DNA from: Mesorhizobium loti
GTDB taxonomy: Bacteria; Pseudomonadota; Alphaproteobacteria; Rhizobiales; Rhizobiaceae
Assembly (NCBI RefSeq): GCF_003148495.1
Contig: NZ_QGGH01000017.1
Coordinates: forward strand, 1 to 64,000
DNA length: 64,000 bases
Direction: 5' to 3'
Positions 42,784-46,935 of the stretch are shown here, piece after piece (the first letter of the stretch is position 1; the number at the start of each line of letters is the position of its first letter). Below the pieces are notes generated by a model. It ran no database searches. It saw only the letters and a program-made list of their open reading frames with translations, and was not told the origin of the DNA. The position numbers and the translations under genes are program-made.

Positions 42784-42946
42784 CGCTGCGCCTCTAAAGA
42801 TGGCCAGGCCTACAGCGAAACAGCTCGCCTTTTCCGGCAATCTGCTCGCCAATGCCGCCAAGCCGCTGCGCCTCTAAAGATGGCCAGGCCTACAGCGAAA
42901 CAGCTCGCCTTTTCCGGCAATCTGCTCGCCAATGCCGCCAAGCCGC
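42784..42946. repeat. Exact 80-bp tandem duplication
   Basis: Bases 42784-42866 are repeated exactly at 42864-42946, with a period of 80 bp (83 identical bases per copy, three shared). The unit contains the last codons and stop of the racemase-family gene on the reverse strand. The copy at higher coordinates holds the functional end, and the other lies beyond the stop. Perfect identity points to a recent event. Confidence 0.95.
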
Positions 42947-43677
42947 AGCATATGCCAGGCAAGTGCATGGTTGCTCGAGGTGACCGGTTTCCCCAATTCC
43001 TTCTCGACCTCCTCGATGATCCGGGCAACGCGCATGCTGGTGCAGGAAACGAACACGGCCTCACAGTCGCTCGACGCACCGATCTCCAAGATGGCCTGCT
43101 TGACCGATGCCGGCGTGATGCGTGCAACGACATTGTCGTCCGCCTCGTTGAAGGAGCCCATGACCGGGATATCCATTCCTCGCGCCATCAGCGATGCACG
43201 CAGCGAGTGATTGATTTTCGCCAGGTAAGGGGTGAGCAGCGCGATCCGCGAGACGCCTAGGGCCTTCAGCGCGGCCCGTGCCGCCGTCACCGGGTTGGTC
43301 ACTTGCACGCCTGGCAGCACCTCGTGAACGCGCGCGGCGACCTTGTCCTCGCCGATGACAAGCGCTCCCGAGGTGCAGGCAAAGCCGATCACATCGAACT
43401 TGACGTCGGGCAGCAGCCCGACCGTTGCCGGGATCACGGCCGACATCTTCATCAGGTTCTCCGGCGTGATCTCGACATCGCTGTAGAGCCGCGCCTCATA
43501 CAGCGCGATGTCGCGTGCGGGCAGCGCATAGCGGAATTCATCCTCGATGGTCTGGTCGGTCCGCAGCACGAGCAGGCCGAGATTGGCGCGGGTGCCAATA
43601 CCGTCGTCGGTCTTGAAGGGAATGTGTTCCTTGTCGAGGACAAGCGTTTCGTCGGCGCGGGTAACCGGGGCGTCCAT
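42874..43677 (-). CDS. Asp/Glu racemase-superfamily enzyme (maleate isomerase / arylmalonate decarboxylase-like)
   Basis: The 267-residue protein has two cysteines at family-typical positions, C101 in IGFACTSGALV and C212 in FVSCTSMRVAR. The fold signature of the maleate isomerase / EutA / arylmalonate decarboxylase group also includes TNPVTAARAALKALG and RIALLTPYL. Such enzymes use a cysteine pair for racemisation or isomerisation of acids. The substrate is unknown. It is divergent from a DadA-like oxidase, with identical operators in the shared region, so the two probably act in one amino- or keto-acid pathway. Its 3' end is duplicated in tandem. Confidence 0.85.
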   Translation of the reverse strand: MDAPVTRADETLVLDKEHIPFKTDDGIGTRANLGLLVLRTDQTIEDEFRYALPARDIALYEARLYSDVEITPENLMKMSAVIPATVGLLPDVKFDVIGFACTSGALVIGEDKVAARVHEVLPGVQVTNPVTAARAALKALGVSRIALLTPYLAKINHSLRASLMARGMDIPVMGSFNEADDNVVARITPASVKQAILEIGASSDCEAVFVSCTSMRVARIIEEVEKELGKPVTSSNHALAWHMLRLGGIGEQIAGKGELFRCRPGHL

Positions 43678-43705: not shown

Positions 43706-43721
43706 GAATTGTCGACAATAG
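43706..43721. promoter_or_regulatory. Operator copy 1 (ATTGTCGACAAT palindrome), racemase side
   Basis: GAATTGTCGACAATAG contains the 12-bp perfect palindrome ATTGTCGACAAT (43708-43719), about 30 bp before the racemase-family start. The same 16 bases recur at 43859-43874. The TTGT-N-ACAA core is typical of FCD-type GntR regulators, one of which is encoded downstream of the oxidase. Confidence 0.75.
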
Positions 43722-43832
43722 AAAACGGCAACATTGCCGAAGGTGTCAAGGGCTCCGTGCGGATTTTGGAAACCGGAAACGCCTAAATTCTACGCTTAGG
43801 TGGATCACTTGTCAGTCGCCGCCCTTGCGCCG

Positions 43833-43860
43833 TTGACAAGGATCGGCGTCTTCCTATTGA
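43833..43860 (+). promoter_or_regulatory. Sigma-70-type promoter of the oxidase-regulator operon
   Basis: TTGACA (43833-43838) and TATTGA (43855-43860) are separated by 16 bp. The second operator begins at the end of the -10 element, in a classical repressing position. Confidence 0.55.
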
Positions 43861-43874
43861 ATTGTCGACAATAG
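43859..43874. promoter_or_regulatory. Operator copy 2 (ATTGTCGACAAT palindrome), oxidase side
   Basis: An exact 16-base repeat of the site at 43706-43721, with the palindrome at 43861-43872. It lies directly after the predicted -10 element and 24 bp before the oxidase start. Confidence 0.75.
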
Positions 43875-43897: not shown

Positions 43898-45178
43898 ATG
43901 CGCGTATTGATCTTGGGCGGGGGCGTGGTCGGGATCACCACGGCCTATCAGCTGCAAAAGGATGGCCATCAGGTCACCGTTCTCGAGCGGGCACCGCAGG
44001 TGGCCGAGGGCGCAAGCTGGGCAAATGCCGGCATGATCGCGCCCGGTCACTCTTTCGTCTGGTCATCGCCAGCCGCCCCAAAAATCCTGCTGAAGTCGCT
44101 GTTCCAGAAAGACCAGGCGCTTCGTTTCAAACTCTCCGCCGACCCGCATCTCTACTCGTGGTCGCTGCGCTTCCTGAGGGAGTGCACGGCCGCAAGGGCG
44201 CGTCGCAACACGCTGCTCAAACATCGGCTTGCAGTCCATTCCCAATCGGTCCTGCAGGCGGTCGTCAGGGAGGAAGCGATCCAATACGACAGGACCTCGG
44301 CCGGCATTCTTTACTTCCACCGCAGCCGTCAGGCGCTCGACAAGGGCGTTGCCAACATGTGCCTGCTGGAGGCCGACGGCCAGGAGATCCGCATTGTCGA
44401 CGCGCAGGAAATCGTTGACCGCGAGCCGGCGCTGACTTCGTCGCGCGGCGGCATTGCTGGCGGCATATTGTGTCCGACCGACGAAACCGGCGACGCCGCC
44501 AAGTTCACGCGCGCACTGGCGGCCATCGTCGAAACGAGGGGCGGCAAGATCCTGACAGACACCAGGATCGTCGGGATCGAACGCAGGAACGACGCGATCA
44601 CCCGGGTCGTCACCGACAAGGGAGAGGTGTTGGCCGACACCTACGTTCTGTGCCTGGGCGCGGAAAGCCCGATCCTTGCCCGCAAGATCGGCCTCGGTCT
44701 GCCGATCTACCCGATCAAGGGATATTCGCTGACCATTCCCATCGTCGACCAGGCCCTGGCTCCAAAACTTCCCGTGATCGATGAGCACAACCTCGTTGCC
44801 ATCACGCCGATGGGCGATCGCATCCGCGTCACCGCCACCGCAGAGTTTGCAGGCTATGATCTTAGCCACAAACCCTCCGATTTCGCGTTCATGAAGCGTG
44901 TCACGCAGAATCTTTTTCCACGCGGTATCGCCTATGATCGTGCCGAGATGCGGGCCTGTCTGAGGCCAATGACGCCCGACAATCTGCCGATCCTCGGCCG
45001 GCGCAACATCAAAAACCTCTGGCTGAACACCGGCCACGGCCATATCGGCTGGACCATGGCGCATGGATCGGCCCGCATCGTCGCCGATCTGATCGCCGGC
45101 CGGGCCGCGCCAATCGCCCTCGATGGTATCCTTCCCACACAGGCGCGGTTCGCCGAACCAAGCGCCGCAAAGGCTTGA
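43898..45178 (+). CDS. D-amino-acid dehydrogenase-like FAD oxidoreductase (DadA family)
   Basis: The 426-residue protein starts MRVLILGGGVVGITTAYQLQ with the FAD-binding GxGxxG motif in its first 15 residues. A second segment, LGLPIYPIKGYSLTIPI, and the C-terminal LNTGHGHIGWTMAHGSARIVADL are characteristic of DadA-type deaminating dehydrogenases. It oxidises D- or other amino acids at the membrane, passing electrons to quinone. The earlier in-frame codon at 43862 would lie in the operator, so 43898 is preferred. The GntR gene follows with overlap or a gap of a few bases. Confidence 0.88.
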   Translation: MRVLILGGGVVGITTAYQLQKDGHQVTVLERAPQVAEGASWANAGMIAPGHSFVWSSPAAPKILLKSLFQKDQALRFKLSADPHLYSWSLRFLRECTAARARRNTLLKHRLAVHSQSVLQAVVREEAIQYDRTSAGILYFHRSRQALDKGVANMCLLEADGQEIRIVDAQEIVDREPALTSSRGGIAGGILCPTDETGDAAKFTRALAAIVETRGGKILTDTRIVGIERRNDAITRVVTDKGEVLADTYVLCLGAESPILARKIGLGLPIYPIKGYSLTIPIVDQALAPKLPVIDEHNLVAITPMGDRIRVTATAEFAGYDLSHKPSDFAFMKRVTQNLFPRGIAYDRAEMRACLRPMTPDNLPILGRRNIKNLWLNTGHGHIGWTMAHGSARIVADLIAGRAAPIALDGILPTQARFAEPSAAKA

Positions 45179-45186
45179 CCGACGCC

Positions 45187-45915
45187 ATGCTCCGACCCAC
45201 CAGGCAAAGCAACCAGGACAACAATGCGGCGTCGGCATCCAAGCCAATCAAGACCGGCCCGCGTGTCTATGAAGAGATCCGTCGGATGGCGATGGACTAT
45301 CGCTTCAAGCCGAACGAACGCATCAACGAAGTGGCGCTTGCCGCGAGGCTGAACGTCAGCCGCAGCCCGATCCGGGAGGCCCTCCAGCGGCTGGTCACGG
45401 AGGAACTCATCACCTTCCAGACCAATCGCGGCTTCTTCTGCCGCGGCTTCGATGTCGACGAAATCGTCAATCTTTCCGATGTGCGGGCCGTGCTCGAGGA
45501 CCGCTCCCTCAGGCTGGCAATCCAGCGCGCGACCAATGAGGAACTCGCCGCGCTCGTCGACTGGTGGACGCTGACCATGGCGCGAGCCGACTCATTTTCC
45601 AGCGCCGAACTGACCGCCAGGGACGAGGAATTTCACATCCGCATCGCCAGGCTGTCAGGCAATCCCGAACTGGCGCGCATGCTCGAAGGCATCAACACGC
45701 GCATCCATTTCGTTCGCAAGATCGAAGTGGAGAAGCACCGGCGACTGTCGACGACTTACACCGAACACAGCGAGATCGCCCGGGCCATGGTCGCCCGCGA
45801 TGCCGACAGCGCCGCCAGGCTCATGCATGACCACATCGCCATCAGTGTCGCCGATGCCATGTCGACCGTTCGGGAAGGCCTCGCCCGGATATACATCGAT
45901 GTAGGCCAGATCTGA
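45187..45915 (+). CDS. GntR-family (FCD) transcriptional regulator
   Basis: From the ATG at 45187 the protein has 242 residues; a TTG at 45175 overlapping the previous stop (TTGA) is a possible alternative start. The winged helix has NEVALAARLNVSRSPIREAL and FQTNRGFFCRGF (about 40-85). The FCD domain contains DEEFHIRIARLSGNPE and YTEHSEIARAMVARDAD, with ligand-type histidines. Position directly after the DadA-like gene and the ATTGTCGACAAT pair in the divergent promoter make it the likely regulator of both units. Confidence 0.88.
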   Translation: MLRPTRQSNQDNNAASASKPIKTGPRVYEEIRRMAMDYRFKPNERINEVALAARLNVSRSPIREALQRLVTEELITFQTNRGFFCRGFDVDEIVNLSDVRAVLEDRSLRLAIQRATNEELAALVDWWTLTMARADSFSSAELTARDEEFHIRIARLSGNPELARMLEGINTRIHFVRKIEVEKHRRLSTTYTEHSEIARAMVARDADSAARLMHDHIAISVADAMSTVREGLARIYIDVGQI

Positions 45916-45933: not shown

Positions 45934-46935
45934 TCAGGCGACCTTGTCGAGCAGCGGCCTCAGCGCCGGGTGGATTTCCGGCGAGGCGTGCTTGATCAGC
46001 GTCAGCAGCGCGCGTTCGTTCTCGTACAGAGGCCGGTCCGCGCCGATATGCTCGATCAGCCAGCCGGCTTCGCCGGCATCGATCGTCTCGGCGCGGCGGG
46101 CCAGGGCCTCGGCCGCCCTGTTCTTGGCTTCCCACTCGGCCTCGATGTCGCCTGGAGACCGATAGGCTTCCATGATGCCGGCAAGACCGCCGGAGATCAT
46201 GCGGCTGAAGAAACCGCCGATTTCCGGATCGGCGTGTTCGAGGAAGACATCACGGCGCAGCGCCACATCGCGCGTCGGCGCTTCATAGCCGGCCGAGCAC
46301 ATGACGAAATTGGCGATCGCCTTGACGAACAGGTCGTTCCAGGACGGATCGTTGTGTCCTTGAGCGGTCCGCTCATTGATCCTGAACAGCACTTCGGCCT
46401 CGGCGCGGGTGATGGCGATGTTGCCGTCGCCGCCATGGGCATGGAGGATCCGGCGCAGCAGCTCGACCTCGGCCTTGGCGATCAAACCGGGAACCAGTGC
46501 GCCGCCGAGCATCAGCGGCCCCTTGCCGTCGATAACGGCATGCGCCACCTGCTCCAGCGCATAGACGCAAAGCTGACCCGGCGACGATCTCGCCTCTTCC
46601 AGCACATGGACCAGCAATTCGAGTTCGGTCCGGCTGTCGACCATGCCGTCACGCGAGATCGTACGGATCAGCCAGTCGGCATTGTCCTGCGAGATATAGC
46701 CCGACGGCTTTTCCTGGTGGACGATGTAGTCGGTGACCGCCTCGATGAAGAAGGGCGGCCATTCCTGGCATTTGTCCTTGGCCGTGGCGTCGAGCGCGAA
46801 CAGCGCCTCGGCCTCGCCGCGCGTCACCACGCCATCGCCGAACACCTCATGGCGCAGCATCGCCACATCCTCCGCGGCGATGCTGCTTTTCGAGGTCAGC
46901 CCGGCCACCGGCGCACTCATGATCAATTCGCCCAT
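45934..46935 (-). CDS. Hypothetical protein with two internal copies of an unknown domain
   Basis: The 333-residue soluble protein is built from two related halves. The first has VAMLRHEVFGDGVVTRGEAE, ALFALD and WPPFFIEAVTDYIV, then ADWLIRTI. The second has VELLRRILHAHGGDGNIAIT, RAEAEVLFRIN and WNDLFVKAIANFV, then AGWLIEHIGADRPL. The GD-x-VVTRGEAEALF and GDGNIAITRAEAEVLF pattern resembles a calcium- or TerB-like helical motif, but no family can be named. No signal peptide or membrane segment is present. The second ATG, at 46920, is a possible start. Confidence 0.7.
   Translation of the reverse strand: MGELIMSAPVAGLTSKSSIAAEDVAMLRHEVFGDGVVTRGEAEALFALDATAKDKCQEWPPFFIEAVTDYIVHQEKPSGYISQDNADWLIRTISRDGMVDSRTELELLVHVLEEARSSPGQLCVYALEQVAHAVIDGKGPLMLGGALVPGLIAKAEVELLRRILHAHGGDGNIAITRAEAEVLFRINERTAQGHNDPSWNDLFVKAIANFVMCSAGYEAPTRDVALRRDVFLEHADPEIGGFFSRMISGGLAGIMEAYRSPGDIEAEWEAKNRAAEALARRAETIDAGEAGWLIEHIGADRPLYENERALLTLIKHASPEIHPALRPLLDKVA

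Follow-up and report, generated by a model that had tools for sequence, protein, structure and literature searches.

Divergent promoter and question addressed

In Mesorhizobium loti, the 16 bases GAATTGTCGACAATAG occur twice in the promoter region shared by a racemase-like gene and a dadA-like gene, and an FCD-type GntR regulator is encoded behind the latter. Which protein would bind these twin sites, how it would act on the two promoters and what substrate the genes serve are the questions raised by this locus. They were addressed in the window, i.e., the whole stretch of 64,000 nucleotides analyzed, in its source genome and in related genomes. The two sites, O1 and O2, are very probably operators of the GntR-FCD regulator behind dadA, through which divergent genes for amino acid degradation would be repressed independently of each other. 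This reading was built on what can be read in the DNA, namely the sites, their conservation, their co-variation with the regulator in some relatives, their spacing and the gene content; from these we infer binding, repression, inducer and substrate. Coordinates are collected in Table 1.

Table 1. Predicted control elements and genes of the divergent locus (window positions).
Feature	Position	Strand	Remarks
Two-cysteine racemase/isomerase, EutA / maleate isomerase / AMDase branch of the Asp/Glu racemase superfamily	42874..43677	minus	C101, C212
Predicted operator O1, 16-mer GAATTGTCGACAATAG	43706-43721	.	palindromic core 43708-43719; between -35 box and racemase start codon
-35 box TTGACA, racemase promoter	43749-43744	minus	24 bp upstream of O1 core; CTTGACA invariant in 11/11 Mesorhizobium; predicted from sequence
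-35 box TTGACA, dadA-gntR promoter	43833-43838	+	22 bp upstream of O2 core; invariant in 11/11 Mesorhizobium
-10-like TATTGA	43855-43860	+	16 bp past -35 box, abuts O2 core; from sequence only
Predicted operator O2, 16-mer GAATTGTCGACAATAG	43859-43874	.	core 43861-43872; between -35 box and dadA start codon
DadA-type FAD D-amino acid dehydrogenase	43898..45178	+	start is ATG; NF001933 427.3 bits, cut-off 383
FCD-domain GntR regulator, 242 codons	45187..45915	+	8 bp past dadA stop codon

Identity of the encoded proteins

The regulator of 242 residues placed behind the oxidase by the preliminary description is a real gene, read from the ATG at 45187; a TTG located 12 bp upstream would give 246 codons. 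Both of its domains exceeded the curated cut-offs (PF00392, 56.9 against 27; PF07729, 86.3 against 24.3). The metal/ligand site of FCD domains follows the pattern Asp-x3-His ... His ... His, which the protein fits through D146, H150, H194, and H216 (242-residue numbering), all of them invariant in the five regulators aligned (5/5). A PhnR-type identity was rejected, the best NCBIfam match (TIGR03338) reaching 112.9 bits against a cut-off of 271.5.

DadA passed the NF001933 subfamily test, its activity being predicted; an alternative TTG start at 43862 would fall inside O2. For the racemase, EutA of ectoine utilization (TIGR02990) was the best curated NCBIfam match and stayed below its cut-off (177.5 bits vs. 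318), with no ectoine genes recognized among the neighbors examined; the name arylmalonate decarboxylase was likewise discarded (NF052327, 60.1 bits vs. 225; both cysteines kept). Cys101 and Cys212 were invariant in 14/14 aligned homologs, and according to the available part of PMC4996985 a glycine (G74) replaces the second active-site cysteine in arylmalonate decarboxylases. This indicated that the enzyme has the two-cysteine layout of a racemase/isomerase.

Rarity of the palindrome and its conservation in Mesorhizobium

The core of both 16-mers is a 12-bp palindrome, ATTGTCGACAAT, with the layout TTGT-CG-ACAA, which fits the operator rule for FadR/FCD regulators (TKGT and ACMA boxes with 2-3 nt between GT and AC) as given in the accessible portion of PMC4494728. 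The two copies have the same asymmetrical flanks and the same reading direction, and they sit 153 bp apart in 220 bp of intergenic DNA, one before each divergent gene, exactly where they had first been reported. Exact matches to ATTGTCGACAAT in the window were limited to O1 and O2, and matches with up to two mismatches amounted to 6 vs. a mean of 1.67 in shuffled sequence, where one shuffle in 100 gave as many as 6. The 7.45 Mb genome contained four exact copies and 27 with one mismatch, as compared to 0.4 to 1.0 exact copies expected from Markov models made from the window; under such models the chance of a second copy within 300 bp of the first was below 1e-4. The genome-wide search proposed earlier, with random density of the palindrome as the adverse outcome, thus favored the operator reading. 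Apart from O1 and O2, one exact copy precedes another FCD-GntR gene and one lies within a coding frame (L002); both lack the GA..AG flanks, so that the complete 16-mer is unique to the divergent promoter in this genome.

A search for related loci returned 65, including 10 from other Mesorhizobium (L031-L039 and L058); named loci among the 65 with 94-98% identity placed the source genome in this genus. Both palindromes were present and exact in 10/10 of them. When the 11 Mesorhizobium sequences were aligned (window included), all 24 operator columns were invariant vs. 68 of the 202 others. Both operators, together with the reverse complement of the dadA -35 box, made up the longest invariant runs, and besides the operators the invariant runs of at least 7 columns corresponded only to the two -35 boxes. 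Within the genus, 12 of 146 genomes, the source genome among them, encode the regulator at E 1e-60 or better, which indicated a patchy distribution of the system.

Sites and regulator in Rhizobium, Shinella, and Neorhizobium

The arrangement differed in seven Rhizobium/Shinella-type loci (L040-L046), where the racemase gene stands at the end of a LIV-type transporter operon divergent from dadA, and dadA is followed by ridA and then gntR in 7/7. Gene content of the operon was read from the frames in L040, L044, and L046; in L041-L043 and L045 the part examined comprised the promoter, the beginning of the binding-protein gene and the final portion of the last ATPase gene. The twin sites stayed between dadA and the binding-protein gene, which takes the racemase's place there. 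Both were exact in five of the seven loci (L041-L045), in L040 one was exact and the other had a single mismatch, and in L046, whose adjacent regulator was 61% identical, both were altered alike and symmetrically to CTGTCGACAG. Plasmid records from Neorhizobium NCHU2750, Shinella sumterensis UPHL-collab-3 and Rhizobium sp. 11515TR (L162-L164; two may duplicate species already counted) presented both sites exact, 153 or 163 bp apart, and the two annotated ones among these records name a D-amino acid dehydrogenase, an endoribonuclease or RidA, a branched-chain amino acid transporter and an Asp/Glu racemase. The RidA-family protein encoded between dadA and gntR in L163 scored 87.1 with PF01042 (cut-off 27.3) and 62.7 with TIGR00004 (cut-off 106.25). 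The binding protein of the relatives matched PF13458 with 167 bits, NCBIfam models for it remaining below their cut-offs. The R. rhizogenes regulator, searched in 394 genomes of the family, was found at E 1e-60 in four.

The Mesorhizobium locus is without transporter and ridA. No near copy of the binding protein was found elsewhere in the source genome (six matches reached E 1e-20 or better and were 24 to 32% identical), and the Mesorhizobium form therefore looks reduced. Taken together, the palindromes were invariant in Mesorhizobium, followed the regulator through a rearrangement and differed where the regulator has diverged in several relatives, a behavior that bears out their proposed role as putative operators.

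Other copies in the genome and size of the regulon

Outside the divergent promoter, 29 genome sites had at most one mismatch to ATTGTCGACAAT: 26 fell in ORFs by a mechanical test, one was in an FCD-GntR promoter and two were possibly intergenic (L008 and L154). The promoter site (L001) had been called coding by the mechanical test through a non-ATG start and was reclassified by its ATG. Since the other sites lie almost all in ORFs, the regulon appears to be the divergon alone; a wider regulon was rejected on the same count, and the self-contained regulon of the preliminary description holds in the source genome. In frame, ATTGTCGACAAT encodes Ile-Val-Asp-Asn whichever strand is read, a possible reason for coding copies like that in L002.

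O1 and O2 might still be bound, wholly or in part, by another FCD-GntR protein, chiefly the one at C2:393051, giving a wider or cross-wired regulon; we consider this improbable. A cut-off of E 0.001 gave 31 matches to the window regulator in the genome, itself included, and an exact ATTGTCGACAAT (L001 1501-1512; G000 C2:393749-393760) lies 38 bp before the ATG of this second FCD-GntR gene (C2:393051-393656), so that the core alone does not name its regulator and some cross-talk may occur. The flanks differ, however, being GATTGTCGACAATC at C2 vs. a left flank that is mostly T and a right flank of T or A at sites of the O1/O2 type; moreover, the twin sites and the adjacent gntR stayed together in all 21 close loci examined, and both sites were changed in L046, whose adjacent regulator is the most diverged of the close loci. 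These observations speak for the regulator behind dadA. The L001 site is flanked on either side by enolase-superfamily-like and dioxygenase-like frames, as judged by eye.

The regulon seems slightly less confined in the relatives, where exact sites outside the locus amounted to three of four in R. rhizogenes (G146), one each in G147 and G150, and none in G148, G149, and G151. One of the R. rhizogenes copies (L117 1501-1512) looked promoter-like by eye and is a possible further target.

Promoter geometry and probable mode of action

The TTGACA-TATTGA promoter originally described before dadA was present, with a 16-bp spacer, and a minus-strand TTGACA on the racemase side, absent from that description, was found here. 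TATTGA was kept in 10/11 Mesorhizobium loci, L039 being the one that differs. In 18/18 loci a TTGAC(A/G/T) hexamer was located 19-24 bp upstream of each operator, which indicated that the -10/start region is covered by the operator. Measured from the centre of the site, the start codon was 28-33 bp away on the dadA side and 30-40 bp away on the opposite side (18/18 loci; in seven loci the first ATGAA past the operator served as the right-hand start codon). The inter-site distance (150-208 bp), in turn, tracked the intergenic length (210-277 bp; 18 loci, Spearman 0.76, p 0.00025, uncorrected for kinship). With constant gene distances and an inter-site distance that follows intergenic length, each operator probably blocks its own promoter. 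The same 18 loci thus displayed the two marks of a separate-double-site divergon, an inter-site distance rising with intergenic length and the proximity of each site to its own gene.

Alternatively, dimers bound to O1 and O2 could join and loop the intergenic DNA, turning both promoters into one unit. Two identical sites 153 bp apart, together with spacings of 152-154 in 10/11 Mesorhizobium loci, are what such a loop would call for; across the 18 loci, however, spacings ranged from 150 to 208 with no helical phasing detected (R 0.40, p 0.29, only 8 distinct values), and spacing that scales with intergenic length at constant gene distances is assigned to separate, presumably independent sites in the available part of PMC4494728. 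Looping has therefore only a slight chance of being right, and independent blocking of the two promoters is preferred.

The position of O1 and O2 downstream of their -35 boxes suggests repression rather than activation. Such a position is typical of repressors. Activation by the regulator, or a role of the palindromes in RNA stability within the 5' leader rather than in protein binding, would be compatible with operators placed at or just past the likely start points and partly in the leaders. We give these possibilities a similarly slight chance: besides the position of the sites, an FCD-GntR protein with the same motif, PrpR, represses (PMC9765439, as far as its available part goes), a loopless 12-bp perfect palindrome would make a poor hairpin, and the change in L046 keeps the dyad symmetry that a dimer site needs. 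Duplication or chance, leaving a second copy with no role, would account for identical 16-mers with the same asymmetrical flanks and direction, and is nevertheless dismissed as extremely improbable, given that both cores are invariant across Mesorhizobium while the spacer has diverged and that both copies are kept in other genera with different flanks.

Candidate operators in distant relatives

Three of 12 distant loci scanned presented clear twin sites (L161, L165, and L166). In Azospirillum ramasamyi, with a regulator 51% identical, the divergent promoter contained TGTGTATACACT and TCTGTATACAGA, a twin of TGTATACA type, whereas Caballeronia and Cupriavidus, whose regulators were 40% identical, had AGTGTCGACACT-type pairs between dadA and ridA, with one imperfect member in each. 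No like pair appeared in L047, L048, L050, L053, L054, L055, L114, L169, and L170 in the same scan; these nine loci either lacked sites or had scattered ones in which 4 or 5 of the 6 positions were symmetrical. When 13 loci, including L049, L051, L052, L056, L059, and L080, were scanned more strictly, L047 and L048 were the only ones with a site. Half-sites resembling GTGTATCCA were seen in both promoters of the TRAP-linked loci L048 and L050, before ridA/gntR and before the racemase gene, and represent perhaps another operator type.

The operator series runs from ATTGTCGACAAT in Rhizobiaceae and ACTGTCGACAGT in L046 to AGTGTCGACACT in Caballeronia/Cupriavidus and TGTGTATACACT/TCTGTATACAGA in Azospirillum, and the differences in recognition helix and wing across it are few (SRSP/SRTP, LQRL/LNRL, and NRG/SRG). 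Aligned regulators of the ATTGTCGACAAT group had the helix VSRSPIREALQRL in common, along with a wing containing NRG; the regulator of the L046 genome (L107) displayed the helix VSRSPVRESLQRL and an SRG wing, and those of Caballeronia, Cupriavidus, and Azospirillum displayed VSRTP(L/V)REALNRL. The correspondence between helix or wing and operator type is to be taken as an apparent association over few independent changes and not as proof of contacts. Related regulators with differing paired operators make up a small comparison set that is directly testable by gel shift.

A gene for ferredoxin oxidoreductase adjoined the module in three of the five annotated plasmid loci with racemase, DadA, RidA, and GntR (L161, L165, and L166, not L162 and L163); L167-L170 were without the full set. 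In the Azospirillum locus, AGTGTACACACT was observed between gntR and a gene of the indolepyruvate ferredoxin oxidoreductase family (L161 1940-1951), and its position suggests that this gene may belong to the same regulon there. As a tentative extension, which we find possible and yet more doubtful than credible, the regulator lineage may have changed its operator several times with the paired layout kept, and the module may constitute an undescribed D/L amino acid route, perhaps aromatic, that runs via the cofactor-free racemase, DadA, RidA, and indolepyruvate:ferredoxin oxidoreductase. If true, the operator series would be a natural set for reading the DNA code of FCD-GntR proteins.

Comparison with known systems

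PrpR of P. aeruginosa is an FCD-GntR repressor of the 2-methylcitrate operon with the predicted motif ATTGTCGACAAT; gel shifts demonstrated its binding to DNA upstream of prpR, and the operon is overexpressed in the deletion mutant (PMC9765439, available part). The likeness comprises the GntR-FCD class, the identical predicted 12-mer and a regulator included in its own regulon. The differences, within what that part of the source covers, are one site upstream of prpR vs. two in a divergent promoter here, and prp genes there vs. racemase and dadA here. Among the neighbors examined prp genes were absent, the sites adjoining the racemase gene, dadA, and gntR.

The twin pattern was also scanned for in 397 genomes of the order, with gaps of 135-165 only, so that spacings of 200-208 could not be found. 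It matched in 5/397 genomes (control pattern, 1/397): two of the five correspond to the racemase/dadA locus in Mesorhizobium, two to L137 and L138, and one to L136. In L137 and L138 (1501-1670), two genomes from another family of the order, twin ATTGTCGACAAT sites 157-158 bp apart precede an unrelated FCD-GntR gene (Pfam for L137), and L138 has divergent TRAP-like genes (by eye). In L136 (1501-1677), twin TTGTCGACAA lies between a 436-aa frame and a gene that looks CoA-transferase-like by eye, with no regulator seen within the 3.2 kb locus. The PrpR motif and the twin TTGTCGACAA in L137/L138 indicated that the palindrome recurs as an operator type of FCD-GntR proteins and is no signature of the racemase/dadA system.

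As regards architecture, Suvorova et al. (2015) describe, in the accessible part of PMC4494728, a second class of double-site divergons whose sites presumably act independently, one for each operon. The separate-double-site divergons of the FadR subfamily have the same TKGT/ACMA palindrome with 2 nt between GT and AC, and the same two sites near their own operons at a distance that grows with intergenic length. No architectural difference was found with respect to that part of the source, which does not mention the present regulator or genes.

Our locus also resembles alanine catabolism of the dad type. In that pathway a racemase makes the D-amino acid, DadA oxidizes it, and a RidA-type protein clears the imine. 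The racemase is a PLP alanine racemase there and a cofactor-free enzyme of Asp/Glu type here; regulation is by GntR-FCD here, and the relatives have a LIV or TRAP transporter and in some cases a ferredoxin oxidoreductase. No published account of the racemase/dadA/gntR locus turned up in a search limited to open-licence papers. The arrangement is of a known kind, and the locus provides a probable assignment of operator, targets and type of pathway for an uncharacterized rhizobial FCD-GntR regulator; in broader terms it makes a neat example and comes as no surprise.

Proposed mechanism and substrate

Each operator is predicted to overlap the -10/start region of one of two divergent promoters of the sigma-70 type. 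A dimer bound at O1 would shut off the racemase promoter and one bound at O2 the dadA-gntR promoter, each independently of the other and with no looping. As gntR directly follows dadA, the regulator would also use O2 to repress its own gene. Both sites would be released by a small ligand derived from an amino acid and bound in the FCD domain. The two-cysteine racemase would then interconvert the enantiomers and DadA would oxidize the D form to the imine/2-oxo acid. In the relatives, the LIV-type transporter would import the substrate and the RidA-family protein would hydrolyze the imine; in some of them indolepyruvate:ferredoxin oxidoreductase would take the 2-oxo acid onward, hinting at an aromatic substrate.

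The preliminary description left the substrate as an acid or amino acid acted on by a racemase/isomerase and an FAD oxidase. An amino acid is the more likely of these and a dicarboxylic acid the less likely one, since DadA, the RidA-family protein and the LIV-type binding protein speak for an alpha-amino acid. Indolepyruvate:ferredoxin oxidoreductase prefers aromatic 2-oxo acids, and its presence in relatives weakly favors a substrate with an aromatic 2-oxo acid. By comparison with solved structures the binding protein is LIV-like, a likeness that does not name the ligand. Genes of TRAP type, identified by eye, replace the LIV system in L048, L050, L054, and L055, and the substrate may therefore differ between lineages.

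Additional features of the window and genome

Downstream of gntR, a frame of 333 codons with an apparent internal repeat occupies 45934-46935 on the minus strand and had no Pfam or NCBIfam match at E 0.001. Three more EutA/racemase-like paralogs are present in the genome (C12:80184, C10:108988, and C12:88025), 32-39% identical. An exact 80-bp tandem duplication was found at 42784-42943, in two identical copies; it was not seen in the L031 sequence, and either strain specificity or an assembly error may account for it. Because the gene-proximal copy contains the racemase stop codon, the protein is unchanged; the other copy repeats the last 25 codons downstream.
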